Positions 4,668 to 16,502 of a stretch of 27,729 bases of DNA are shown in pieces. A program made the translations under genes and the position numbers. Positions within the stretch are counted from its first letter, which is position 1. The number at the start of each line of letters is the position of its first letter. The stretch is from a virus: positions 1-27,729 of the IMG/VR virus record IMGVR_UViG_3300025736_001639. One strand, written 5' to 3'. Below the pieces are notes generated by a model. The model was given only the letters and a program-made list of their open reading frames with translations. It searched no databases and was not told where the DNA came from.

Positions 4668-4877
4668 ATGAAAAAAACTAACACAATCAATGGTATTGAA
4701 ATTAAGACAACAACCGTAGAAGAGAAAAAATTAATTGGTGAGAAAGTTCAAGAAATTCGTCAAAAATATAAAAAAGGTAAACATGGTATTGGGAATATTT
4801 TAGCAGAAGAATATCAAGTAACTCCAGCTGTTATATCGGAGATAATAAATAAAAAAAGAAATTATGGATACTATTAA
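4668..4877 (+). CDS. Small helix-turn-helix-like protein
   Basis: A 69-residue basic protein. The second half (about 40-65) reads as a helix-turn-helix: GIGNILAEEY, a turn, then VTPAVISEIINKK as a recognition helix. The first half contains a charged helix around EEKKLIGEKVQEIRQKY. This suggests a sequence-specific DNA-binding protein, perhaps a regulator or an endonuclease-derived DNA-binding module. It overlaps the start of the methyltransferase gene by 14 nt, so the two are likely translated together. The HTH call rests on pattern only. Confidence 0.55.
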   Translation: MKKTNTINGIEIKTTTVEEKKLIGEKVQEIRQKYKKGKHGIGNILAEEYQVTPAVISEIINKKRNYGYY

Positions 4878-6078
4878 AATAGATAAGTTGATACCATATA
4901 ATCGTAATGCCAAGAAACATAATACTAAGCAAGTCAAAAGTGTAGCAGATAGTATTAAAAGATTTGGATTTGTTCAACCGATTGTTATAGACAAAAACAA
5001 TGAAATTGTTATTGGTCATTGTAGATTAGAGGCGGCAAAGATATTAGGACTTAAAGAAGTCCCTATTATAAGTGTTGAAAATCTAACAGATAAAGAAGTT
5101 AAATCATTGAGATTAGCCGATAATAAGTTAAATGAGAGTGACTGGAATCTTGATTTAGTAATAGAAGATTTAAAAGAACTAGATGAAGACTTACTTGATT
5201 TAACCGGGTTTGATAATGATTTAATTATTGAAGAAGACGAAAAAGATGATGAAGTTCCTAATGTACCAGATGAACCAAGTAGTAAGTTAGGGGATATTTA
5301 TCAATTAGGAAATCATAAGATAATGTGTGGCGATAGCACTAAGATTGAAGATGTAGAGAATTTAATGGCTCTGAAGAAAGCAGATTTAGTAGTTACAGAT
5401 CCTCCGTATAATACAGGGATGCAAGGAAAAGGAAATACATTCGATTATGATTGGACAAAAAAGAAAGAGAAAGCCAGGCTTCCTCACATGTTTGATGATA
5501 AAATAGAAAATTGGCCAGAATTTATAAGCGACTTTTTAAATAATTACATAGCAGTAACAAAGGGAGAGTGTGCTTATTATGTATTTATAGACTGGCGTAA
5601 GGTACAAGATATAAAATCGGCAATGGAAAAAGTAATGGATGTTAAGAATGTTATTGTATGGGACAAAAAGGTTCATGGCTTAGGAAGCGACTATAAATCT
5701 ACTTATGAATTATGTGTAGTAGGTAAAAGAGGTAAGCCAGAAATTAAAAATCGTTATGGGCTAGACTATCAAGATATTTGGAGACTACAAAGAGAAATGG
5801 GAAGGAATAAAATGCACGCTACCGTTAAGCCGATTGAATTATTAGAAAAACCAATTAAACATGCTAGCAAGGAAGATGACATAGTATTAGATTTGTTCCT
5901 AGGGAGCGGAAGTACTCTAATAGCTTGTGAAAAAACAAATAGAATATGTTACGGAATGGAACTTGATCCACGATATATTTCAGTAATTTTGGATAGGTGG
6001 CAAGAATATACTGGAAATGAAGCTATTAGATTAAATGATAATAAAAAGTGGAATGAAATAAAAGAAAATAAGTTATAA
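4864..6078 (+). CDS. ParB-like nuclease domain fused to DNA methyltransferase (N6-adenine/N4-cytosine type)
   Basis: A 404-residue two-domain protein. Residues about 5-75 are a ParB/sulfiredoxin-like domain with PYNRNAKKH, SIKRFGFVQPI and the GHCR motif (51-54). Residues about 145-385 are an amino-methyltransferase. The catalytic motif IV DPPY is at 179-182, HATVKP at 318-323, and the AdoMet-binding motif I (LDLFLGSGS) at about 342-350. Motif IV before motif I marks the beta class. These proteins methylate an exocyclic amino group in DNA using AdoMet, and the fusion is common in phages and mobile elements. It may protect phage DNA or mark packaging sites; no restriction partner is in the window. 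Length is normal and motifs are complete. Confidence 0.92.
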   Translation: MDTIKIDKLIPYNRNAKKHNTKQVKSVADSIKRFGFVQPIVIDKNNEIVIGHCRLEAAKILGLKEVPIISVENLTDKEVKSLRLADNKLNESDWNLDLVIEDLKELDEDLLDLTGFDNDLIIEEDEKDDEVPNVPDEPSSKLGDIYQLGNHKIMCGDSTKIEDVENLMALKKADLVVTDPPYNTGMQGKGNTFDYDWTKKKEKARLPHMFDDKIENWPEFISDFLNNYIAVTKGECAYYVFIDWRKVQDIKSAMEKVMDVKNVIVWDKKVHGLGSDYKSTYELCVVGKRGKPEIKNRYGLDYQDIWRLQREMGRNKMHATVKPIELLEKPIKHASKEDDIVLDLFLGSGSTLIACEKTNRICYGMELDPRYISVILDRWQEYTGNEAIRLNDNKKWNEIKENKL

Positions 6079-6517: not shown

Positions 6518-7931
6518 GGCTAGATTTAGTTTTAGCTTTTTTGTTAATGAAATATTTAGCAAGAGTTTTGATAAATTTATAGATGGTAAATACATTGATA
6601 GTGTATGTGATTTTTTACAGGAGAGTACAAGATCGGTAAGGATAGCCCCTAGGGATCATTTTAAATCTACCAGTCTATATGCTCATTTTATGTGGCAGAT
6701 ATGGAAGGCAAGATATATTCCACAAAACATTGAAGGGCACTATTTTAGTTATCAGTCTGGGATGTCCTCTTATCATATTCAAAAGATAAAAGAAATGATA
6801 AGGAATAATCCATACTTTGACGACTTAACTGACTTAAAGGAAATTTCTGAAAGCACTTGTAAATATACATGGGATGGAATACATTATATAACATTAGAAC
6901 CTCATGGCCTATTAGCCTTTAAACGTGGTATTCATTGTGACTTAGTATACATAGATGATCCGTTTCAAGACCCAGAGAATAAAATGCTATTAACAAATAT
7001 CTATAAGATTAATAAGATTTTTGTTAGTAACATAATGGATATGCCTAAAAAGGGTGGCGGACTACATTGTTGTGGAACACCTCAGACAACAACCGATTTC
7101 TTCTTTGATAAGAAAGTGACCAAACGTTTCAATACAAAGTTCCAACCTGCTATCGTTTCTGATAAACAAAAGATAGCTTTATGGCCGGAGCATTTAAACT
7201 ATAAAGAGTTAAAGCTTAGACAAGAAGAAAGAGGGCTTAATTTATTTAGCCAGGAATATCTTTGTATGCCTGTTTATTCCTCTGAAAGTTTTATAAATCT
7301 TGACAGATTAAATGAAACCGTAAATAAAGATTTGCCAAATTCAAGGATAACAGATACAATTAAACACGTAGATAAAGTCTTCGGTGGTTGGGATTTAGGT
7401 AAAAAGGTTCATCCCTCTCATTTCGCTGTTTTCAAAAAAGATGGAGACAAAGCGATAATGATCCATCATAAGTTTATGGACAATTGGGACTATTCAAATG
7501 GTACAGAATATGATCCGGATAATCAAACACAGATTGAATACATTAAATTGGCTATAAAGCAATGGGGAATAAATACAGTTTATTATGATTCTACTAGAGG
7601 AGAACTAGAATCATTCGCTGAACAAAATTTATTACCACCAGCGTTAGAACCTGTTATTTTCAATACTAATACTAAAATGTCAATGGCGACTAAGCTTGAT
7701 AGCATGGTCACTCAGAAGAGAATAGAACTAATTGATGACAATAGATTATTAAATCAAATCGTAGCAGTCACAAATGATTTAAAGGCTATTGAATCACCAG
7801 AGGGTCATGGAGATTCTTTCTGGTCAGTTGCTCTCTGTATGTTTGGTCATTGGGACACAGGCGGTAGTGCGTCATTGAGTACCGGGGGAAGAAGTGTCAT
7901 GGAAAGTGATACGATTCCTGAAGGTTTTTAA
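6444..7931 (+). CDS. terL: Terminase large subunit
   Basis: The DNA-packaging motor: an N-terminal ATPase and a C-terminal RNase H-like nuclease, about 495 residues from the chosen ATG. APRDHFKST (68-76) is the Walker A, with Phe where Gly is usual. LVYIDDP (167-173) is Walker B, followed by CCGTPQTT as the coupling motif. Nuclease acidic residues are in GGWDLG (D317), YYDSTRG (D382) and HGDSFW (about D457). The start is uncertain: the frame is open from an ATG at 6381, but that overlaps the preceding gene by 137 nt. ATG 6444 still overlaps by 74 nt; TTG 6459 or CTG 6504 (after GGAG) are alternatives. Conserved sequence begins only near 6520. Confidence 0.9.
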   Translation: MKLQKLKIEKKQSLRIITERLIKNKARFSFSFFVNEIFSKSFDKFIDGKYIDSVCDFLQESTRSVRIAPRDHFKSTSLYAHFMWQIWKARYIPQNIEGHYFSYQSGMSSYHIQKIKEMIRNNPYFDDLTDLKEISESTCKYTWDGIHYITLEPHGLLAFKRGIHCDLVYIDDPFQDPENKMLLTNIYKINKIFVSNIMDMPKKGGGLHCCGTPQTTTDFFFDKKVTKRFNTKFQPAIVSDKQKIALWPEHLNYKELKLRQEERGLNLFSQEYLCMPVYSSESFINLDRLNETVNKDLPNSRITDTIKHVDKVFGGWDLGKKVHPSHFAVFKKDGDKAIMIHHKFMDNWDYSNGTEYDPDNQTQIEYIKLAIKQWGINTVYYDSTRGELESFAEQNLLPPALEPVIFNTNTKMSMATKLDSMVTQKRIELIDDNRLLNQIVAVTNDLKAIESPEGHGDSFWSVALCMFGHWDTGGSASLSTGGRSVMESDTIPEGF

Positions 7932-7940
7932 TAAAAAAAT

Positions 7941-10259
7941 ATGGCAAAACAAAACATCTTTACAAAGATATTTAGCTCTTTATCTGGTAGTGAGAAGAAA
8001 GAAGAGAGAAAAATAGAGGCAGATAAACGGCAATCATTAGCCGACTATATTAATGAATTAGGAGTAGCGAGAGACGCTGTTATCGGAGGTTATAACACAG
8101 AAGAAAATCCCGATAGCTTAAACCCAGAGGACTATATTAAAATGCAGAACAATGATGGAGAAGTTGCGTCCATTGTTAATTTAATTAGTCTTCCAATCCA
8201 ATCAACGGAATATAATTTTATTCCAGCAAAGAATGATAATGGAGAACTAGACTTTATCATTAATAATTTTACAGCACCAAAAGAACAAGGCGGTATGTCA
8301 ACACCGCTTCCTTTAGTTATAGCAGATATGACTAGGGCAGTATTTGAAGGTTATCGCTTCTACGAAAAGGTAGCTCAAATAATTAAAGAGGGGCCTTATG
8401 AAGGATTAATTGGTTGGCAGAAGTTAGCACCTCGCGACGCTGATACAATCCAGATAAGAGTTGATAAGTACGGAGGATTTATGGGTGGCCATCAAGAAGC
8501 AACATTTGGTGAAGAAACTGTTGATGTAAATATACCACCAGAGAAATCAATGTTGTTTACCTTTAGAAAAGAAAAGCACCAACTATACGGTGAATCTATT
8601 TTAAAGTCGGCTTATTATCATTATGACAAGAAGCATAAGCTTTATTATATAGCTCATAAGACCGCTGAAATAGAGGGTATGGGTGTTAGACTATTAAAAC
8701 CTTTAAAACAATTAGATAGTACTGAAAGAGAAGCCGCAGAAGAAGCGGTGGATAATATGGGGATAAATTCTAGACTTACACTACCACCTGGCTATGACAT
8801 GGAATGGATATTTGGTGGCAAAGGTAAAGACGGAATGCCGTTAATACAACATCATAATTTAATGATGGCTAAGTCTGCCATGCAAAGCTTTATGTCTCTT
8901 GGAACAGAAGGCAAGGGCGGAAGTTATGCTTTAGGCAAGACTCAAGCTGAATGGTACTCAATGTTTATTGAAAGCATATTAAGGCAAATGGAGGCGACTA
9001 TTAATACTTATGCTATACCTCAATTAATTAAATGGAACTTTGGAACAAACGCATATCCAACGCTAAGATTTAATCCAGTAGAAGATAGGGCCGGCGAATT
9101 ACTTAAGGCTGTATTTACAGAGATATCTAAAAAAGATCTTACTGTTATTCCTGATGGATTTGTTAAAGAAGTTATTGATAAGACCGCTGAAAACTTAGGC
9201 TTAGAGTATGCAGTAACATCTACAGAGAAAACAAATGAAGATGCTAAGAAGATGACGGAGAAGGAAAAGGTTAATTTAGAGGACAGAGTGGAGAGTAAAT
9301 TTTGGAGATCATTAACTCAAGCTGAAAAGAGTGTAGATTTTGAAGGCATTGAGAATAAAATGAAAACCCAAGAAAAAGAATTAGCTGATAGAATGAATGT
9401 TATATTTGAGAAAGAAATTCCAATAGTTTCAGAAGAAGTTAAAAAGTTAGTTGATGCTGGTAAAGAAAAGCAGATAAAGAAAATTGAGCTACCTTTCCAA
9501 GATGAATTAAGAGAACTTATAAAAGAAAAATATACCAACATCTTTCAATTTGGTAAACTTAAGGCTGCTGATGAATTAAAAAAGGCTTCGCCAAAGACTG
9601 ATAATAAGATTAAAAAGGCTATTGATAAAAAGGTTAAGGAGTTTATGGATACTCATAAAAAGAATGTCTTAGAACATATATCAGAGAATGTTAAAAATAT
9701 TCCTAAGCAAGAAGGTGTAAAATTACAAGAATTTGAAAGCGTTACAGAAGTCGTTGATAATTCATTAAGTAGTATGGTGGCGGCTACATTTGCTAGTCTA
9801 GTAATCTCTACTGGCTTAAATTCAGGCAGAGACGCTACATTTGATGAATATGCCAATGATATCAGTAGATACCAGTACAGCGCTATATTAGACCGACGAA
9901 CATGCAATGTATGCATGAGTTTAGATGGCCGAGTAGTTAAATCAACTGATTCTGCTTATGCAGAGTATGAACCACCAAGGCATTTTAGTTGCCGGTGCCT
10001 AGATGATTCTCATGATGTTTTAACTAAAAAAGGAATCAAAAATATTAAAGATATTCAGATCGGTGATTATGTTATGACTCATAAAAATAGATATAGAAAA
10101 GTAACAGGACGTTCAATGCGTGAAGCAGATGAATTATATGAAATTGAAACAAACAAAGGAACAATAAGATGTACACCCGAACATCCAATTTTAACAAAAC
10201 GTGGTTGGGTTAACGCTAAAGACTTGACGACCGAAGACGTCGTTCAGTTTCTAAAATAA
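7941..10259 (+). CDS. Portal protein fused to MuF domain, ending in the N-terminal half of a split intein
   Basis: A 772-residue polypeptide. Residues about 20-420 are a DUF935/Mu gp29-type portal (IKMQNNDGEVASIVNLISLPIQ, QHHNLMMAKSAMQSFMSLG). Residues 430-620 are Lys/Glu-rich coiled helix. From about 630 a MuF (SPP1 gp7/Mu gpF) domain runs through SAILDRRTCNVCMSLDG to PPRHFSCR. The MuF motif HxxCRC is broken before its last Cys. From C686 the sequence is an intein N-half (CLDDSHDVLTKKG), and the frame stops at 10259. The remaining MuF residues lie in the gene at 10767. Trans-splicing would give 685 + 98 = 783 residues. In Mu itself, portal and gpF are separate genes. Confidence 0.92.
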   Translation: MAKQNIFTKIFSSLSGSEKKEERKIEADKRQSLADYINELGVARDAVIGGYNTEENPDSLNPEDYIKMQNNDGEVASIVNLISLPIQSTEYNFIPAKNDNGELDFIINNFTAPKEQGGMSTPLPLVIADMTRAVFEGYRFYEKVAQIIKEGPYEGLIGWQKLAPRDADTIQIRVDKYGGFMGGHQEATFGEETVDVNIPPEKSMLFTFRKEKHQLYGESILKSAYYHYDKKHKLYYIAHKTAEIEGMGVRLLKPLKQLDSTEREAAEEAVDNMGINSRLTLPPGYDMEWIFGGKGKDGMPLIQHHNLMMAKSAMQSFMSLGTEGKGGSYALGKTQAEWYSMFIESILRQMEATINTYAIPQLIKWNFGTNAYPTLRFNPVEDRAGELLKAVFTEISKKDLTVIPDGFVKEVIDKTAENLGLEYAVTSTEKTNEDAKKMTEKEKVNLEDRVESKFWRSLTQAEKSVDFEGIENKMKTQEKELADRMNVIFEKEIPIVSEEVKKLVDAGKEKQIKKIELPFQDELRELIKEKYTNIFQFGKLKAADELKKASPKTDNKIKKAIDKKVKEFMDTHKKNVLEHISENVKNIPKQEGVKLQEFESVTEVVDNSLSSMVAATFASLVISTGLNSGRDATFDEYANDISRYQYSAILDRRTCNVCMSLDGRVVKSTDSAYAEYEPPRHFSCRCLDDSHDVLTKKGIKNIKDIQIGDYVMTHKNRYRKVTGRSMREADELYEIETNKGTIRCTPEHPILTKRGWVNAKDLTTEDVVQFLK
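9996..10256 (+). other. Intein N-terminal half (87 residues)
   Basis: Hint-fold splicing domain. Cys1 opens block A (CLDDSHDVLTKKGIKNI, then GDYVMT), and block B is TNKGTIRCTPEHPILTKRGW with the catalytic Thr and His of TPEH. The half ends LTTEDVVQFLK just after block B, the usual place where endonucleases sit in full inteins. Cys1 carries out the N-S acyl shift. All N-terminal catalytic residues are present, so it looks active. Confidence 0.92.
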
Positions 10260-10743
10260 TATGACAATGTCTACAAAGAAGTCTAAGATTAATAAGCGAT
10301 TCATTACGAAGATGATGAGGAATATTAGATCCTTTACCATCGATGTGATCTATTTCAAGATTTTTTGTGCTATTACATCGTTCACATTTTCCACGAGAAC
10401 GCACAATTCTATGATTTTTTCTAATATTACTGTTAGGTGTTCTTCCATTTTTCCATTGTTGCTTAATAGCTTCGCTTCCTTTTCTCGTAGATATTCCATA
10501 ATAATCAAGAATTTTCAAAACAGTTCTATTATTAATATTAGTAATATAAGCAACTTGTCTAATGGATTTTCCACTTTTATAAAGAGAAACAATTTCTTTA
10601 CCTTTATTTCGCAACATTCTATGAAACTTAAGTTTTCTCTTACAAGAAACAGAACATACTACGGCAGTAGAAAATCTATATTGAGGAACATAAGATTCAG
10701 ATCCACAAACTTCGCAATTAAAATATTTTCCTTTTTTAATCAT
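10216..10743 (-). CDS. HNH homing endonuclease, antisense between the intein halves
   Basis: A 175-residue protein, the only clear - strand gene. Residues 9-35 form a zinc finger (CEVCG, CSVSCK). Residues about 55-90 read as a helix-turn-helix for target recognition (SGKSIRQVAYITNINNRTVLKIL). Residues 118-162 are the HNH nuclease with zinc cysteines: GKCERC, then IDHIDGKG with the catalytic His, Asn in the following loop, and LLCRHCH. It probably cuts intein-less portal-MuF alleles and spreads the element by repair. Its last 44 nt lie inside the N-intein coding region on the other strand. A sigma70-like promoter with extended -10 stands just upstream on the same strand; the predicted start would make a nearly leaderless mRNA. 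Confidence 0.9.
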   Translation of the reverse strand: MIKKGKYFNCEVCGSESYVPQYRFSTAVVCSVSCKRKLKFHRMLRNKGKEIVSLYKSGKSIRQVAYITNINNRTVLKILDYYGISTRKGSEAIKQQWKNGRTPNSNIRKNHRIVRSRGKCERCNSTKNLEIDHIDGKGSNIPHHLRNESLINLRLLCRHCHIILETERRLRSSSL

Positions 10744-10749
10744 ATTAAC

Positions 10750-10778
10750 ATTGTATCACAATCGCTATGAATATGCAA
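10750..10778 (-). promoter_or_regulatory. Predicted extended -10 promoter for the HNH gene
   Basis: On the - strand: TTGCAT (-35 like, 10778-10773), a 17-nt spacer, then TACAAT (-10, 10755-10750, 5 of 6 matches) preceded by TGA, the extended -10 element TGN. The expected transcription start is near 10743, the A of the endonuclease ATG, implying a leaderless or near-leaderless mRNA. The promoter lies within the first codons of the C-intein gene. Confidence 0.5.
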
Positions 10779-10886
10779 CACACAAAAATTAAAACAATAA
10801 AAAAAGTACCTTTTAAAGGATTAGTCTATAATTTTTCAATAGATGAAGATGAAAGCTATATAGCAAATAATATCGTTGTTCATAAT
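10767..10886 (+). other. Intein C-terminal half (40 residues)
   Basis: Carries block F (VYNFSIDEDESYIANN) and block G (IVVHN), followed by Cys as the first extein residue. About 40 residues is a normal length for a split-intein C-half. Together with the 87-residue N-half it makes a 127-residue mini-intein without an internal endonuclease. Confidence 0.9.
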
Positions 10887-11183
10887 TGTATTTGGATAGC
10901 ATTATCTAAAGACTTAAAAGGCTTACCTAAGATTACAGGCATATCTAGCAAAATCCCTAGTGAATTAAATTCTGCTATCGCAACTCCAGTTTTAACTCCT
11001 GGACAAACAGAAGCAATCGCAGAGGTAGAAGAAAGGGCAGAAGAAGCTACAATGAAGTCAAAAATCTTAGAAGATAAAGCTAACAAATTAGAAGTAGCCT
11101 CTGAAGGGCCAACGCAAAAAGATTTAATTGTTGATAAGCATTATTCTGACTTAGATAAAGAAATTAACAATTTATTTGAATAA
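10767..11183 (+). CDS. Intein C-terminal half followed by the C-terminal part of the portal-MuF protein
   Basis: A 138-residue protein. Residues 1-40 are the intein C-half: block F GLVYNFSIDEDESYIANN and block G VVHN, ending with the penultimate His and terminal Asn needed for Asn cyclisation. Residue 41 is Cys (+1 nucleophile) and starts the C-extein CIWIALSKDLKG. This continues the MuF motif interrupted at 9995 and runs 98 residues through a Glu/Lys-rich helical tail. It has its own ATG 507 nt after the stop of the first half, with no Shine-Dalgarno (TCGCTATG), so it must be made as a separate polypeptide and joined by trans-splicing. Confidence 0.9.
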   Translation: MNMQHTKIKTIKKVPFKGLVYNFSIDEDESYIANNIVVHNCIWIALSKDLKGLPKITGISSKIPSELNSAIATPVLTPGQTEAIAEVEERAEEATMKSKILEDKANKLEVASEGPTQKDLIVDKHYSDLDKEINNLFE

Positions 11184-11187
11184 ATAT

Positions 11188-12024
11188 ATGTTTAAACAAA
11201 AAAATAAACAAGTTGACCTAGAGAATAAGCAAGATAAGTTGCAATTAAATACAAAAAATTTACTTACCTTCTTAACTTCTAAAATTATAAAAAGATTTGA
11301 CCAAGGTATTAGAATCAAAAATCTTCCAGAAGTTCAAAAGATAAAAGGTAAAGTTGAACTAGTCGGTGAAGATGGCAAGACTAAAAAAGTTTCCATTGCT
11401 GATCTAGACAAAGAATTACAAGACAAAAACAAATGGATGTATGTTAAGATTTTAGAAGGTGATGGATTTATCAATGCTTTATCAAGAGCAATCGTGAATG
11501 AGCCTAGTTTTTTTGATAAAGATGGATCACCTGCTAGAGGTAGAGTAGATGATGACGGAAGAGTTTGGGTTAATGTTAAAGATGGAAGTATAGATGCTTA
11601 TGCTTTTCAAAAACCAGATGGAGCTGATGCTCGTGCTAAAGTTGACAGTAATGAACAACTTGTTGTATTGCCTTTCGCTAAAGATAGTGGCGGATTAATT
11701 AGAGGAGCAGCTGATGATGACGGGACTATAAGAGTAAAAATAATGTCAGAGATTATTTGCACTACTCCTCTTATTCAGAATATTGACTTAGTTGACAAAG
11801 CTTTATGGTATGAAATTATATTACCAGCTAAAACTAAGATGTTTACTTTGAAATTAAGAGACGAAGATTACGGATTTTATTATGATTTTACAGCAGCACA
11901 TGTAAATTACATGACAGCAGATTCAGGCGAAAGAATTACTTTTGGCAGTGCTCCAAGAGTAATTTATGTTCAATGTTCAGAGGCAGATGCACAGGTTGCA
12001 GAATTATTAACTTGGTTAAACTAA
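11188..12024 (+). CDS. Probable virion structural protein with tandem Asp/Gly repeats
   Basis: A 278-residue protein. I chose the ATG at 11188 (AAATATATG) over 11176 because 11188 is in the usual leader context and avoids overlap with the preceding gene. The first 40 residues are a basic helix. Between about 110 and 190 there are three related units: GSPARGRVDDDGRVWVNV, GADARAKVDSNEQLVVLP and GLIRGAADDDGTIRVKIM. Each has a D-D/N-G-x-hydrophobic beta pattern. The last 90 residues look like a beta-sandwich. No named family is recognised. Its place among head genes and the beta repeats suggest a decoration, head-fibre or adhesion component; this is inference. Confidence 0.6.
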   Translation: MFKQKNKQVDLENKQDKLQLNTKNLLTFLTSKIIKRFDQGIRIKNLPEVQKIKGKVELVGEDGKTKKVSIADLDKELQDKNKWMYVKILEGDGFINALSRAIVNEPSFFDKDGSPARGRVDDDGRVWVNVKDGSIDAYAFQKPDGADARAKVDSNEQLVVLPFAKDSGGLIRGAADDDGTIRVKIMSEIICTTPLIQNIDLVDKALWYEIILPAKTKMFTLKLRDEDYGFYYDFTAAHVNYMTADSGERITFGSAPRVIYVQCSEADAQVAELLTWLN

Positions 12025-12025
12025 T

Positions 12026-13633
12026 ATGGAAGGATTTATAACAAGATTTATATCAAAATTAAAGCAGCTCAAAGGTCAGTCTGCTATTTATACTTGGCTA
12101 ACTAATGCACAGGATCTTGTTGATGAAGTAATAGAGGATATTTGGGATGTTAATACTACTGATTATACTCTTTATGCTGATTCTGTTAATGGAGATGATG
12201 ATACTGGAGATGGAAGCGTAGGAAGTCCTTATAAAACGCTTGAAAGGACTTTAATGGATATTCCATTAAGGCCAGCATATAAGCCAACTATTGACTTAGC
12301 TGGTGATTTTAAAATTACTAAAGACTTATCATTTTTCTTTTATGTTAACAATATTGAAATAATTGGTAAAAAGTCTATTGCTTCTACCCATGCTATTACT
12401 GGTATAGTGGGTGCTAGTAAAGCTACTGGAACAATTTTAACAGTAGCCGGAGCAGGCTGGGTTGCGAATGAGCATGTTGGAAAGCTCGTTAATTATACGT
12501 CTGGTTTACCTAATGAAAGATATGGATTTGTATATAAAAATACTGCTGATACTATTTATATAAGTCAAAATGGCAATATTTATAAAGCGCCAGTTAATGG
12601 AGATACTTTTGATATTATGTCTATTGACACTAATATTGATATTGAAAAAGCAGGATCACCTGGAACTACTTTAGGAATGAAATCATGTCGTTTTAAATTC
12701 TATTATTGTAATTTAACAGGAGATGGATTGGTAGTTCAAGGTTCTTGGCTATATACTGTTAGATGTACTATGAATTTAGCTACCGCAGTTGGAGCTAATG
12801 CTTCATTTTTAACCATTGAAACAACTTATATTAAAGGTACTGGTTTTATAGCATGGTTTAATTTTCAAAATACTACAACTAAATTATTTGCTGGCACAGT
12901 TATTGATGGAGATACAAATAAAGGACTATTTACAAGAGATCAATGTACTATTAAACTAGCTGGTGAGGTTGTGTTTACAAGGTTAGATAATAATGGAATT
13001 GCTACTCTAGGAAGTTTCTGGTCAGCAGAAAGAGACGACGCTTGGCTTAGACTACATGATTGTGTAGCTGGGTTTACACATGGATTTTGGAATAATCAAG
13101 ATCCAGGCGCGGCTCAATCTTCAGCTACAAATGTTGTTAATCTTCCGCCTGTTTATGGTAATATTACTGGTGATTATTTAATTATGGCTAAAGCAGGAGA
13201 TATTTATAATATTGATCCTACTAGTGTAGTAACAACAGCGCTAGGAACAAATAATGGCTCAGTTGATAATGGATTAACAGAGGGCTACCATGATCCTGAA
13301 ACTGGAACTATTATTTATGGGGTCAAAGAAATTGGTTCATATGATACAGAGAATACTGTTAGAGTGGCGGCTGATTATGTAGTTAGTAAGTTTGATTATT
13401 CTGTTGGGGTTACTGATACCACAGTCGCTAGAGCAATTACAATACCAGATCCAACAACATTGCCAATTAATAAAGGATTTGAAGTTGGTGATGAATCCGG
13501 CAATGCCGCAGTGAATAATATTACTATTACTCCGGCCGTCGGGCTTATTAATGGAGTAGCTAATTTTGTTATAAATACTAATTATCAATCTACAAAAATA
13601 ATTCAAGACGGCACTAATTATTTTACAAGATAA
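12026..13633 (+). CDS. Beta-helix fibre/tailspike-like protein
   Basis: A 535-residue protein. After a helical start (1-45), ADSVNGDDDTGDGSVGSPYKTLERTL (about 52-77) is the entry motif of right-handed parallel beta-helix (pectate-lyase-like) proteins of phage fibres and spikes. The middle 300 residues are rich in short beta-strands with Gly, Asn and Thr. The end (TITIPDPTTLPINKGF, GDESGNAAVNNITITP, TKIIQDGTNYFTR) matches C-terminal heads of phage fibres. No catalytic acid cluster can be assigned, so depolymerase activity is open. Its location between portal and protease genes is unusual, as fibres usually follow the tail genes; a head fibre is possible. It ends 4 nt before the next small gene. 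Confidence 0.78.
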   Translation: MEGFITRFISKLKQLKGQSAIYTWLTNAQDLVDEVIEDIWDVNTTDYTLYADSVNGDDDTGDGSVGSPYKTLERTLMDIPLRPAYKPTIDLAGDFKITKDLSFFFYVNNIEIIGKKSIASTHAITGIVGASKATGTILTVAGAGWVANEHVGKLVNYTSGLPNERYGFVYKNTADTIYISQNGNIYKAPVNGDTFDIMSIDTNIDIEKAGSPGTTLGMKSCRFKFYYCNLTGDGLVVQGSWLYTVRCTMNLATAVGANASFLTIETTYIKGTGFIAWFNFQNTTTKLFAGTVIDGDTNKGLFTRDQCTIKLAGEVVFTRLDNNGIATLGSFWSAERDDAWLRLHDCVAGFTHGFWNNQDPGAAQSSATNVVNLPPVYGNITGDYLIMAKAGDIYNIDPTSVVTTALGTNNGSVDNGLTEGYHDPETGTIIYGVKEIGSYDTENTVRVAADYVVSKFDYSVGVTDTTVARAITIPDPTTLPINKGFEVGDESGNAAVNNITITPAVGLINGVANFVINTNYQSTKIIQDGTNYFTR

Positions 13634-13637
13634 AAAT

Positions 13638-13757
13638 ATGGCTAACGAAGAACTAAAAGGAACTAAAGCTTGTCCAAGATGTGGAAGAACAATAAGAGCT
13701 AGTTCAGTTTATTGTAAGTATTGTCAAAAGCCAGTTAGGACAGATGTTCAAGGATAA
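13638..13757 (+). CDS. Single zinc-ribbon microprotein
   Basis: A 39-residue ORF starting in the usual context (TAAAAATATG). CPRCG (12-16) and CKYCQ (26-30) make a complete four-Cys zinc ribbon with 10 residues between the pairs. The short tail is polar. Such ribbons occur alone in many phages and may bind RNA, DNA or a protein partner. Its stop codon coincides with the beginning of the foldable RNA at 13756-13873. Confidence 0.6.
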   Translation: MANEELKGTKACPRCGRTIRASSVYCKYCQKPVRTDVQG

Positions 13758-13873
13758 ACAACAAGTTTTAATAAAGCGAACAAACAAGAAGCTTATTACT
13801 TCCTAAAATTAGGAGTAAGGTGGAAAAGACCCTTATAAGCTTTATCAGTTGTTTTAAATTTAACGGGTCTTTT
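13756..13873 (+). ncRNA. Pseudoknot-forming RNA immediately before the tRNA-like gene
   Basis: No ORF fits here, but several exact pairings do. AAACAAC (13756-13762) pairs with GTTGTTT (13848-13854). ATAAAGC (13771-13777) pairs with GCTTTAT (13839-13845). A hairpin forms from TTACT-T-CCTA (13796-13805) and TAGG-AGTAA (13810-13818). AAAAGACCC (13824-13832), inside the first helix, pairs with GGGTCTTTT (13865-13873) outside it, making a pseudoknot. The 3' end is 1 nt from the tRNA-like gene. The AAAAGACCC/GGGTCTTTT pair could instead be a long-loop terminator ending in U4. AAGCTTAT (13789-13796) offers a competing partner for ATAAGCTT (13835-13842). Function unknown; it may process or terminate the RNA before the tRNA. 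Confidence 0.5.
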
Positions 13874-13874
13874 A

Positions 13875-13947
13875 CGCGGGGTTGGAAAGAAGTAAATCCG
13901 CCAGTTTCATAATCTGGAGATCGTAGGTGCAATCCCTACTCCCGCAA
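13875..13947 (+). tRNA. tRNA-Met(CAU)-like, initiator-type C1:A72 end
   Basis: The 73 nt fold as a tRNA. Acceptor CGCGGGG pairs with TCCCGCA, with the first pair a C1:A72 mismatch as in bacterial initiator tRNA; the 5' arm equals that of E. coli tRNA-fMet. The D-stem is GGA/TCC; the anticodon stem CCAGT/TCTGG has one T-T mismatch; loop TTCATAA gives anticodon CAU at 13908-13910; variable loop AGATC; T-stem GTAGG/CCTAC. It is atypical: the D-loop lacks GG, the T-loop is TGCAATC (G for the usual T at 55), the three G:C pairs of initiator anticodon stems are absent, and CCA is not encoded. It may be a divergent phage initiator tRNA or a tRNA mimic. Confidence 0.65.
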
Positions 13948-13967
13948 CAAATAAATAATAAAATAAT

Positions 13968-14177
13968 ATGAATAAATGTCCATATTGTAAAAAAGAAGCA
14001 GGTCGAATTTTTAAAGGAACAATAGCTTATTGCTCTAGGTGCGACGCGCAATTAACTAGACATGATGAATCTACCGGGATAGATTATGTTAAGTGCCAAC
14101 ATTGTGGTTTTGAGCCAGTTCCAAATAAGGGAAGACTAGAAACTTATTGCCCTAAGTGCAATAAAATGACGTTTTAA
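13968..14177 (+). CDS. Double zinc-ribbon protein
   Basis: A 69-residue protein with four CxxC pairs: CPYC (4-7), CSRC (22-25), CQHC (43-46) and CPKC (61-64). These form two rubredoxin-like zinc ribbons. There is no other domain. Similar small double ribbons in phages are presumed nucleic-acid or protein binding. It lies between the tRNA-like gene and the promoter of the structured RNA, in an RNA-rich island. The start follows AAAATAATATG. Confidence 0.65.
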   Translation: MNKCPYCKKEAGRIFKGTIAYCSRCDAQLTRHDESTGIDYVKCQHCGFEPVPNKGRLETYCPKCNKMTF

Positions 14178-14189
14178 TAGAAAAAAGAT

Positions 14190-14217
14190 TTGCCAAATTT
14201 TAAATACTATATATAAT
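14190..14217 (+). promoter_or_regulatory. Consensus sigma70-type promoter
   Basis: TTGCCA (14190-14195; 5 of 6 to TTGACA), a 16-nt spacer, and a perfect TATAAT (14212-14217). It is intergenic, just after the double zinc-ribbon gene, and the expected start near 14224 is exactly before the foldable RNA. It is the best promoter match I find in the window and would drive the RNA and possibly the protease, decoration and capsid genes. Confidence 0.7.
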
Positions 14218-14223
14218 TAAAGT

Positions 14224-14511
14224 ATATCAAGGACGAGTACTTGTTGAAAATTACAGGACGGTCGGGCTAAGTGGCTAACGACTTTAAACATAGCGACTTA
14301 AAGGCACAGCGATATCCACCACCTTTCTTTACTGATTAATAATAATCAATAGAGAAAGGTGGTAAATACAGGACTCGCCGAGACCGATAACATATTCAAG
14401 TAACCAATGTAATAACCCTTAGGGTAAGTAGCAGAGGTTAGGAGATATACTGTCCTGTATATATTCCCTATCCTCCGCTTTCTACCCTAAGAAAGTAGGA
14501 TGTCCTGTTAA
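14224..14511 (+). ncRNA. Large structured non-coding RNA or leader upstream of the capsid genes
   Basis: The gap 14178-14540 has no ORF but dense complementarity. ACAGGAC (14253-14259) pairs with GTCCTGT (14502-14508) and closes the structure. GGTC/GGC (14260-14267) pairs with GCC/GACC (14377-14385). CTTTAA (14282-14287) pairs with TTAAAG (14298-14303). An 11-bp stem 14318-14328/14353-14363 is topped by TGATT/AATCA. A long hairpin 14418-14491 has helices CTTAGGGTA/TACCCTAAG, AGC/GCT, GAGG/CCTC, AGG/CCT and ATATAC/GTATAT. Its apical loop contains GTCCT, complementary to AGGAC at 14370-14374, a pseudoknot. The duplicated ACAGGAC and GTCCTGT segments could also swap partners. I match it to no known class; group I intron, tmRNA and RNase P signatures were not found. 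Confidence 0.7.
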
Positions 14512-14540
14512 TGGTAATATTATTATACATTTAAGATACT

Positions 14541-16502
14541 ATGAAGAAACAAATTAATTTAAGTTTAGAGATACAAAAAGCTATTCCGATGGGGAGCGAG
14601 GAAGGCTATCTTGTTGTTGAAGGCTATGCGACCACAGCTAATGTAGATTCAGAGGGCCAAAGATTTACTGAAAAAGCATTAAAAGGAGCTGAAGATGATT
14701 TATTAGAATATTCAACTGTTCTTTTCAATCACGATAAAGATCGTCCTATTGGTAAAGTTCTAGAAACTCAATATGATGATGTAGGTATTTGGATCAAAGT
14801 AGCTGTTTCAAATACTGAGATGAAGATAAAAGAGCAAATAATGGATGGAACATTAAGCAAGTTTTCTATTATGGGAACTGTTCATAATGATGACGTTAAA
14901 GAGGTAATTGATAAAAGCACAGGCGATAAAATAATTGAATTTAATAAAGCTAAATTTTACGAAGTATCATTAGTTTCTGTACCTGCCAATAGCGAGGCAA
15001 AAGCAGTAGAATGGTATTTAAAAGATATATTTAATAACAAAACTATGAATGTTAAAAAAAAGTTAGAAGAAATCAACAAAATGGACAATAAGAAAGAGAT
15101 GCTTGTTACTTTAAAAACCTTTATTAAGGATTTAGAGAACGACATCACTAAAGAAAATGAAACTAGCAATGTTTCTAAGTCTGAACTTATTAAGACATTA
15201 GAGAGCATTATCAAAAGCTCTGATGATGAAAGTGAAGTCAGAAACTTAGTTGAGTCATTATTACTTAAAATGACTAATTCTAAATTTGAGGAAAGTGTAA
15301 AAGTTTTAGGGTTATCAGAAGAATCAAAGTCTATCTTCTTAGTAGATGATGGTGCTGAAGGAAATTTAGAAGACAATAAATTTCGTAAACAAATATTAAA
15401 GGTAGGTAAATGGTTTCATAAAGACGCTAATGGTGGCGTACTAGAAATCACTAAAAAATCTATTGATAAGTTAGTAGAGAATTTCAAAAAAGGTATACTA
15501 GAAAATGTATTTGTTCCATTAGGACATTCTAGTGATCCAACAAAGAATGCCGGTAAAGTAACTGAGCTTATTCCTACTGAAAAAGGCTTAGATGCTGTCA
15601 TTGAAGTAATAGATAAGAAAGTTTTAAAGAAAATTAAAGACGGATTAATCACTAATGTTTCTAGTTCTGTTATTGAGAACTATGTCACAAAAGATAAAGG
15701 TGATAAGGTTGGACCAGTCTTAGGTCATGTTGCTTTAGTTGCAGAACCTTATATTAAAGGCCTTGCTAAGTTTATGCCTGTTAGTCTTTCAGAGAATTAT
15801 GATGTTATTGAATTAGATGATGAACCACTAACTCCTAAAAAGGCTATTAAAATTATTACTGATGTTTTAGAAAATTTAAAAAAGTCTGCATACAATAAAG
15901 ACGAGAAAAAGGAAGACGAAGATAAAAAAGAAGAAAAAGAGGATAAAAAAGAAGAGAAGAAAGAAGAAAAGAAAGAGGAAAAAGAGGATATTAAAAAAGA
16001 AAAAGTAGAAGATAAGAAAGAAGATAAAATTGATAAGCAAGAAGCTAAGGAAGAAAAGTCTTCTGAAGAGGAATCTAAAGAGAAGTCGGAGAACTCCGAT
16101 GAGTCCAAGGATAAGTCTGATGAGGAAGAAGAATCTAAAGCTGACCTTAGTGAACGAGAGCGCAAAGTTGAGCTTTCTGAAGCTGAGAAGACTTATGGTG
16201 AACTTTTAGAGCAAGGTAAAATTGTACCAGCCCAGAAGGAAACTTTTATCACTTTATATACGGCAAAAGGAACTGCTGTAAATTTATCTGATGAGGACAT
16301 TAACTTTAAAGATCAATTTATGTCATTTTTAAAAGACATGCCGAAAGCAATTGACTTTGAAGAAAAGACCATTAAAGAAAAAGATGATGATCCTAAAAAG
16401 GATTTATCTGAAGATGGAAAACATATTATTGAGCACCTCGATTTATCTGACGATGACGCTAAAGAGGCCGCAAAGAATATGAAGTCAGTTCAATCTAAAT
16501 AA
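14541..16502 (+). CDS. Prohead protease-scaffold polyprotein with two protease-like domains
   Basis: A 653-residue protein. Residues 1-165 are an HK97-type (S78) prohead protease: VEGYATTANVDSEGQRF, catalytic-type His64 in LFNHDKDRPIGK, FSIMG with Ser109, and EVSLVSVPAN. Residues about 285-415 resemble the Mu gpI-type protease: GKWFHKDANGG, VPLGHSSDP with His329, ITNVSSSV (Ser374-376) and GHVALVAEPYIKGL. Residues 450-545 are an extreme Lys/Glu/Asp/Ser tract, typical of scaffold, and 546-653 are a helical end domain. The protein would form the internal scaffold and cleave itself and the capsid proteins. Two protease modules in one chain are unusual. An in-frame ATG at 15045 could give a separate scaffold product. 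Confidence 0.85.
   Translation: MKKQINLSLEIQKAIPMGSEEGYLVVEGYATTANVDSEGQRFTEKALKGAEDDLLEYSTVLFNHDKDRPIGKVLETQYDDVGIWIKVAVSNTEMKIKEQIMDGTLSKFSIMGTVHNDDVKEVIDKSTGDKIIEFNKAKFYEVSLVSVPANSEAKAVEWYLKDIFNNKTMNVKKKLEEINKMDNKKEMLVTLKTFIKDLENDITKENETSNVSKSELIKTLESIIKSSDDESEVRNLVESLLLKMTNSKFEESVKVLGLSEESKSIFLVDDGAEGNLEDNKFRKQILKVGKWFHKDANGGVLEITKKSIDKLVENFKKGILENVFVPLGHSSDPTKNAGKVTELIPTEKGLDAVIEVIDKKVLKKIKDGLITNVSSSVIENYVTKDKGDKVGPVLGHVALVAEPYIKGLAKFMPVSLSENYDVIELDDEPLTPKKAIKIITDVLENLKKSAYNKDEKKEDEDKKEEKEDKKEEKKEEKKEEKEDIKKEKVEDKKEDKIDKQEAKEEKSSEEESKEKSENSDESKDKSDEEEESKADLSERERKVELSEAEKTYGELLEQGKIVPAQKETFITLYTAKGTAVNLSDEDINFKDQFMSFLKDMPKAIDFEEKTIKEKDDDPKKDLSEDGKHIIEHLDLSDDDAKEAAKNMKSVQSK
15045..16502 (+). 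CDS. Possible nested product: second protease domain plus scaffold from an internal start
   Basis: The in-frame ATG at 15045 is preceded by AACAAAACT, nearly the same leader as gene starts at 4517, 17984, 22878 and 23920 (AAAACTATG). It lies exactly between the first protease domain and a Lys-rich helix (MNVKKKLEE). Translation from it would give 485 residues: linker, gpI-like domain, acidic scaffold and end domain, without the HK97-type domain. Nested scaffold genes within protease genes are known (lambda C/Nu3, Mu I/Z). This is an inference from context. Confidence 0.4.
   Translation: MNVKKKLEEINKMDNKKEMLVTLKTFIKDLENDITKENETSNVSKSELIKTLESIIKSSDDESEVRNLVESLLLKMTNSKFEESVKVLGLSEESKSIFLVDDGAEGNLEDNKFRKQILKVGKWFHKDANGGVLEITKKSIDKLVENFKKGILENVFVPLGHSSDPTKNAGKVTELIPTEKGLDAVIEVIDKKVLKKIKDGLITNVSSSVIENYVTKDKGDKVGPVLGHVALVAEPYIKGLAKFMPVSLSENYDVIELDDEPLTPKKAIKIITDVLENLKKSAYNKDEKKEDEDKKEEKEDKKEEKKEEKKEEKEDIKKEKVEDKKEDKIDKQEAKEEKSSEEESKEKSENSDESKDKSDEEEESKADLSERERKVELSEAEKTYGELLEQGKIVPAQKETFITLYTAKGTAVNLSDEDINFKDQFMSFLKDMPKAIDFEEKTIKEKDDDPKKDLSEDGKHIIEHLDLSDDDAKEAAKNMKSVQSK

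Follow-up and report, generated by a model that had tools for sequence, protein, structure and literature searches.

The homing endonuclease of an intein is normally a domain of the intein itself, encoded in the sense direction. Fractured genes of phage origin, for example those of gp41-1 and NrdJ-1, were reportedly described by Dassa et al. in 2009 (NAR, doi 10.1093/nar/gkp095), in a set that held enzymes of DNA synthesis and repair. That a split intein may be found with an endonuclease gene between the two halves of its host gene is thus already known, as indicated by the passages of PMC7090010 and PMC7891396 that cite such fractured genes. AceL NrdHF is a phage-like fractured gene of this kind, with a putative homing endonuclease in between, and is split at the canonical endonuclease site (PMC7891396). 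An intein is also present in the phage portal protein of cluster C1 mycobacteriophages (PMC5050341; ET08), and in T4 and its relatives a homing endonuclease gene, mobE or mobA, splits an essential phage gene (PMC2988022). Here, we describe a locus in a 27,729-nucleotide stretch of viral DNA (IMG/VR record IMGVR_UViG_3300025736_001639, positions 1 to 27,729; hereafter, the window), in which a gene for a portal-MuF fusion protein is broken by a split intein and an HNH endonuclease gene lies between the halves on the opposite strand.

In the literature that we searched, which excluded the 2009 fractured-gene paper, we found no description of an antisense nuclease in an intein, whether split or continuous. 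Our analysis makes it likely that the locus is a mobile split intein with an antisense homing HNH endonuclease and an open sense frame, or bridge, between its halves.

Results

A candidate split intein in the portal-MuF gene

An original prediction, made from the sequence of the window alone, held that it contains a complete N-terminal intein half (Int-N), with Cys1, a TPEH motif and a stop, and, after a gap of 507 nt, a complete C-terminal half (Int-C), with its own ATG and VVHN followed by Cys. The open reading frames (ORFs) and motifs confirmed this description:

7941-10259, plus strand: portal-MuF N ORF (N-extein and Int-N), 772 aa (ORF list)
7941..9995, plus strand: N-extein, a Portal_Mu portal fused to MuF, ending in HFSCR, 685 aa (ORF, Pfam, PHROG)
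9996..10259, plus strand: Int-N, with Cys1 and blocks A and B (TPEH), 87 aa; TAA stop at 10257-10259
10767-11183, plus strand: C-half ORF (Int-C and C-extein), 138 aa
10767..10886, plus strand: Int-C, with its own ATG and terminal VVHN, 40 aa
10887..11183, plus strand: C-extein, with the +1 Cys at 10887, completing the MuF HxxCRC motif, 98 aa

Cys1 of Int-N, at 9996, is residue 686 of the portal-MuF N ORF, and the N-half and C-half share one frame. The portal and MuF domains lie in a single chain (Pfam Portal_Mu, 1e-36; Phage_Mu_F, 3e-10), and the intein matched PT-HINT of Pfam at 4e-6. When the two halves were joined and compared with solved mini-inteins, they matched gp41-1 end to end, over residues 2-127 (E 7e-7), as well as NrdJ-1 (E 8e-8); NrdJ-1, Spl DnaX and gp41-1 were the nearest solved inteins by sequence. 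All of the class 1 residues are present, namely Cys1, TPEH (the TxxH of block B), VVHN (penultimate His and terminal Asn) and Cys+1, and the catalytic residues line up with those of 41 other MuF inteins in an alignment. The joined halves are predicted to form a complete HINT domain, and the element is confirmed, at the level of its sequence, as a class 1 split intein in a portal-MuF gene and a candidate for trans-splicing. With a conserved gene broken by a split intein and an endonuclease gene between the halves, the locus is organized as a fractured gene.

The joint was originally placed inside the HxxCRC motif of MuF, and the sequence agrees. The predicted spliced product of 685+98 = 783 aa reads PPRHFSCR/CIWIALSK across the joint (slash), with the motif restored. 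Intein-free MuF homologues from Pectobacterium, Geobacillus, Bacillus and Staphylococcus phages, all of them distant, align at the same codon, with PPNHFQCR/SVWLPVTK or close variants. As these homologues read through the site, the insertion falls precisely at a codon boundary within a conserved motif, and the residue left at +1 is usable. Of the intein-free alleles that the original prediction had proposed to look for at this codon, distant ones (HFQCR/S) were recovered. A close intein-free allele was not found, and searches with the portal, HNH or capsid protein retrieved only contigs that are almost identical. At the DNA level, phages showed no similarity to the window. A search of genome contigs gave two weak matches. 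The insertion point HFSCR/C lies two codons past the common MuF point, HPN/CRC, and is therefore an insertion site of its own.

The same arrangement recurs in a second contig, with 99.65% identity to the window over 9667 nt (34 single-nucleotide polymorphisms, SNPs). This recurrence speaks against an assembly error, one of the refutations that had originally been envisaged. No SNP falls within 9465-14668, intein region included. The SNPs between the two strain contigs cluster at 6587-7913 and 14669-14801, flanking about 6.7 kb around the split intein with only three, possibly as a result of recombination or co-conversion. A group I or group II intron in the gap was also considered and rejected, as Rfam found no intron RNA and only a tRNA at 13875-13947.

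The antisense HNH gene

Between the intein halves lies a gene on the opposite strand:

10216..10743, minus strand: HNH endonuclease, 175 aa, with an N-terminal Cys cluster, an HTH_7-like region and a C-terminal HNH (PHROG, Pfam)

As originally predicted, it is antisense and overlaps Int-N, and hence the N-half, by 44 nt. Its product matched the PHROG HNH endonuclease family at 1.4e-11, and its HTH_7 match was just under the Pfam cut-off. The protein would be a homing-type endonuclease, with putative cleavage of the intein-less allele. A single-sequence structure model of it was poor (pLDDT 54) and was left unused. One weak candidate promoter was read by eye:

10750..10778, minus strand: possible HNH promoter in the Int-C region, TTGCAT-17-TACAAT

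This sequence is absent from the list produced by a consensus promoter scan, and the scan itself performed no better than chance.

Split MuF inteins in other contigs

Profile scans of viral contigs recovered many inteins at the MuF HxxC motif, and about 28 continuous ones were read in detail; apart from the cultured phages named below, all contigs come from metagenomes. The MuF Cys motif is an intein hotspot. Besides the window, the scans yielded 14 distinct split MuF loci and a truncated contig, L208. A sense HNH fused to Int-C and overlapping the N-half stop is found in seven loci (L008, L056, L058, L139, L140, L148 and L152), and an antisense nuclease in six. The latter is DUF559-like in L054, L133, L134, L137 and L210, and in L057 the antisense ORF is unassigned and weakly nuclease-like (best Pfam match DUF6998, at 0.003). 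In L135 and L136, which are identical over 9.7 kb, the antisense nuclease is reduced to its last 33 residues; the gene is still split, and both intein halves are intact. Two features that had originally been regarded as unusual in the window proved to be recurrent. Most of the split loci sit in portal-MuF fusions, of 770-870 aa, and an antisense nuclease, of further nuclease families, occurs in the six split loci above; antisense nucleases also occur inside continuous MuF inteins. Such split inteins are also carried by MuF genes without a portal fusion (L057, L056 and L148). In an intein tree, which does not place the window itself, split forms were scattered over several places and L057 paired with a continuous mini-intein, L154 (support 92), indicating that splitting occurred more than once.

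Several of these inteins differ at their first residue. The split inteins of L054 (4707-4988), L133 (1132-1425), L134 (4507-4794), L136 (5004-5288) and L137 (1253-1534) start with Ala instead of Cys and have Cys+1, and are thus class 2-like; a naturally split group with Ala1 would be unusual. The first residue is Ser in L210 and in the continuous inteins L077 and L079. Two further loci are of note. In L219 (4143-5117, minus strand), a ribonucleotide reductase-like gene is interrupted by a split intein, and an antisense HNH-like ORF shares about 128 nt with the N-half; the contig stops before the C-half, and no sense frame is open there. In L258 (4663-8229), one gene seems to hold two inteins, of which one is split and lies at an upstream Cys motif and the other lies at HPLCRC.

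Antisense nucleases inside continuous MuF inteins

When the L054 nuclease was searched against phages, it matched three Vibrio phages, in each of them antisense to a continuous MuF-intein ORF. Codon-aligned antisense ORFs of 181-297 aa occur in these phages (1.266, 1.082 and 1.265) and in continuous MuF inteins of ten viral contigs:

L061, L075, L077, L079, L083, L089, L105, L118, L124 and L261

The antisense ORFs that were submitted to Pfam matched DUF559 or MTES_1575, most of them at 1e-16 to 1e-8 (Vibrio 1.082, near-identical to 1.266, was left out of the scan). In L127, the intein is located elsewhere, beside a CxxC motif, and the antisense match is weaker (1e-4). The same layout is present in five other cultured phages, Salmonella ZCSE7, Gordonia Angelicage, Aaphi23, Klebsiella RCIP0054 and Idiomarinaceae 1N2-2, with no separate nuclease gene annotated. 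Hence, eight of the cultured phages examined carry an antisense nuclease in a continuous MuF intein. Of the 102 phage records that one query matched, 62 were from Salmonella; five of the six records examined had this layout. In the sixth, Acinetobacter phage IME285 (L300, 455-1348), a DUF559-like nuclease gene is convergent with an intact, intein-free MuF gene, with a 7-nt overlap. Not all of the 102 matches are therefore intein-borne, and the arrangement in IME285 perhaps represents the state before or after association with an intein.

Of 10 changes between Vibrio phages 1.266 and 1.082, 8 are at third positions of nuclease codons, which indicates that the antisense reading is the constrained protein; 9 of the 10 alter the sense insert. 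In MuF inteins with a sense nuclease and an AT-rich insert, the antisense strand lacks a long open frame. In the MuF intein of Gordonia phage Lennon, a codon-aligned antisense ORF of 236 aa (L037, 3127-3837, minus strand) looked LAGLIDADG-like by eye; it had no Pfam match and was not counted.

The window shares with this continuous class an intein at the MuF Cys motif, an antisense nuclease at the endonuclease site and an open, codon-aligned sense frame. It departs from the class in that the sense frame is not continuous with both intein halves, being +1 relative to the N-half and set apart by stops. The window is therefore a split relative of the continuous form, not a member of it.

The sense frame opposite the HNH gene

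The sense strand opposite the HNH gene is open from 10255 to 10770, and contains one further ORF, which had escaped the original prediction:

10261-10770, plus strand: sense bridge ORF opposite HNH, 169 aa (ORF list)

Its ATG, at 10261, is 1 nt past the N-half stop (TAA-T-ATG), and its end overlaps the C-half start by 4 nt (ATGA). The bridge is codon-aligned with the HNH gene. Between 10260 and 10743, none of the 26 Leu and Ser codons of HNH (11 Leu, 15 Ser) is TTA, CTA or TCA, while codons of this type account for 71% of Leu and 29% of Ser in the genome. The probability of finding none is 7.6e-9 under genome usage, 2.8e-8 with third-base weights, and 1.7e-4 under a deliberately conservative correction for the T-over-A preference of the gene itself. 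Among the codons of HNH for I, V, T, P, A, G and R, 27 end in A, versus 28.1 expected. In every other window gene, TTA and CTA make up at least 0.60 of the Leu codons, and the longest run free of TTA, CTA and TCA in any other gene is 109 codons.

Each of the five DUF559-clade split loci likewise keeps a sense frame open, with P values of 0.032, 0.0067, 0.0037 and 0.00095, and of 0.012 for L210, which was found later and served as a held-out test. The combined P is 1.8e-7 if these relatives, with 35-47% nuclease identity, are treated as independent. Bridges start at most about 11 nt from the N-half stop and end at most about 22 nt from the C-half start; in L054, the nearest C-half start is TTG. 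A Shine-Dalgarno-like GAGGA precedes the bridge start in 7 of 7 DUF559-clade loci but was not counted, because an antisense Leu codon dictates these bases. We rejected programmed frameshifting, as the frame relation of bridge to C-half varies between loci.

The open sense frame may either have been inherited from an unbroken antisense-nuclease intein or serve as a working ribosome bridge. Under descent alone, the bridge would be a relic of a continuous ancestor such as those now seen in Vibrio, Salmonella and Gordonia phages, open because it belonged to the intein until recently, and the split would have come about through shifts of frame at either end of the insert. The window fits this well, in that its bridge is codon-aligned with the nuclease exactly as in continuous antisense inteins, both intein halves share a frame, and the bridge is shifted by +1 and -1 at its ends. 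In the split loci of the DUF559 clade, however, the codon-aligned frame holds 10-23 stops and a different sense frame is open, a pattern not expected of a relic. That the original frame decayed while a different one is open favors a working role for the bridge, and we regard the relic as a real but less probable explanation.

It is very unlikely that the bridge instead encodes a functional protein overlapping the HNH gene. Although its start and stop are positioned like those of an operon gene, no homologue of the frame and no Pfam match was found. Its similarity among the split relatives is at most slightly above the level forced by the nuclease (z about 1.7), so the peptide is not clearly conserved beyond that level. 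In addition, most of the changes between Vibrio 1.266 and 1.082 described above fall at nuclease third positions, and most alter the sense insert.

Other features of the window

Gene starts in the window have almost no Shine-Dalgarno sites and A/T-rich leaders, as in Bacteroidota phages, which hints at a host of this kind. The tRNA gene at 13875-13947 (Rfam) lies among structural genes. Immediately upstream of the terminase genes, 4864-6078 encodes a ParB_N domain fused to an N6/N4 DNA methylase.

Discussion

We propose that a mobile class 1 split intein occupies the zinc-type Cys motif of a portal-MuF fusion. The head operon would yield two proteins, portal-IntN and IntC-tail, which would associate and trans-splice into the 783-aa portal-MuF. 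The antisense HNH protein would act as a homing endonuclease and spread the element to intein-less portal genes; its gene occupies the place where an intein canonically has its endonuclease, but is read from the other strand. The sense frame across from HNH would be kept open, as in the continuous MuF inteins with antisense nucleases. The bridge would then let ribosomes pass from the N-half to the C-half, most likely by termination and re-initiation, and the operon would not be silenced past the antisense gene. The complete intein halves, the intein-free homologues at the same codon, the HNH family assignment, the antisense class and the open frame with its codon signature are evident from sequence; splicing, homing and this translational coupling are what we infer from the organization of the locus.

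Several points weigh against this account. The Intein_splicing family of Pfam matches both halves, yet under its curated cut-off, and the Pfam HNH match (6e-4) is also just under the cut-off. The HNH gene somewhat prefers T-ending codons, weakening the codon test to about 2e-4, and the five DUF559-clade relatives share ancestry (35-47% nuclease identity). Two antisense split loci, L057 and L219, lack an open bridge frame, so the bridge is not required everywhere. The open frame could also be a relic of an unbroken intein and not be maintained.

A dead element, with an intein that has stopped splicing and a portal that functions in the absence of its last 98 residues, is improbable to a similar degree as a functional bridge protein: the catalytic residues are all intact and aligned with those of the 41 other MuF inteins, and the C-half retains its start, the +1 Cys and an open 98-aa extein. 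In L135/L136, moreover, both intein halves are still intact after decay of the nuclease. The original suggestion that trans-splicing is a regulatory device setting how many portal subunits carry a complete MuF tail drew on the host being a portal-MuF fusion. It is not supported and is the least probable of all, since the same split inteins occur in MuF genes unfused to a portal (L057, L056 and L148) and the existence of sense, antisense and nuclease-less versions is the pattern expected of a mobile element in a conserved site.

A mobile split intein with an antisense nuclease may also belong to something broader. Phage MuF genes may harbor a class of inteins coded on both strands, with the intein in sense and, in antisense, a homing endonuclease whose codons are constrained to keep the intein frame open; the window would be a split member in which a translated bridge couples both halves. 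We consider the case for and against this generalization to be evenly balanced. With the nuclease antisense in an intact intein frame, its expression would be freed from the host gene, and two proteins would be tied to the same base pairs. Loss of the nuclease by a stop or frameshift could then break an essential head gene, which would explain its persistence. The split forms with a decayed nuclease (L135/L136) suggest a path from antisense-nuclease inteins to split inteins, and split members enlarge the supply of natural split inteins. Because the layout is present in cultured phages of Salmonella, Gordonia, Vibrio and Klebsiella, it is directly testable.

Like the fractured genes, the window is of phage origin and has an endonuclease gene lying between the two parts of a gene that a split intein interrupts. 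In contrast to the DNA synthesis and repair enzymes that reportedly made up the 2009 set, its host is a virion structural gene; its nuclease is antisense and overlaps Int-N, and its sense frame is open. AceL NrdHF is a class 3 intein with a GIY-YIG nuclease, whereas the window has a class 1 intein with HNH. The portal inteins of cluster C1 are continuous and lie at a different site without the MuF motif, whereas that of the window is split and lies at the motif. In the genes split by mobE or mobA, there is no intein and the halves act as separate chains, in contrast to the split intein found here. The continuous MuF antisense inteins (Vibrio 1.082/1.265/1.266, ZCSE7, Angelicage, Aaphi23, RCIP0054 and 1N2-2) share with the window the MuF Cys motif, the opposite-strand nuclease and the codon-aligned open sense frame. 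Those inteins have an unbroken ORF and a DUF559/Vsr-like nuclease and are inserted before the first Cys of the motif, whereas the intein of the window is split, is accompanied by HNH, and is inserted two codons further on, before the second Cys.

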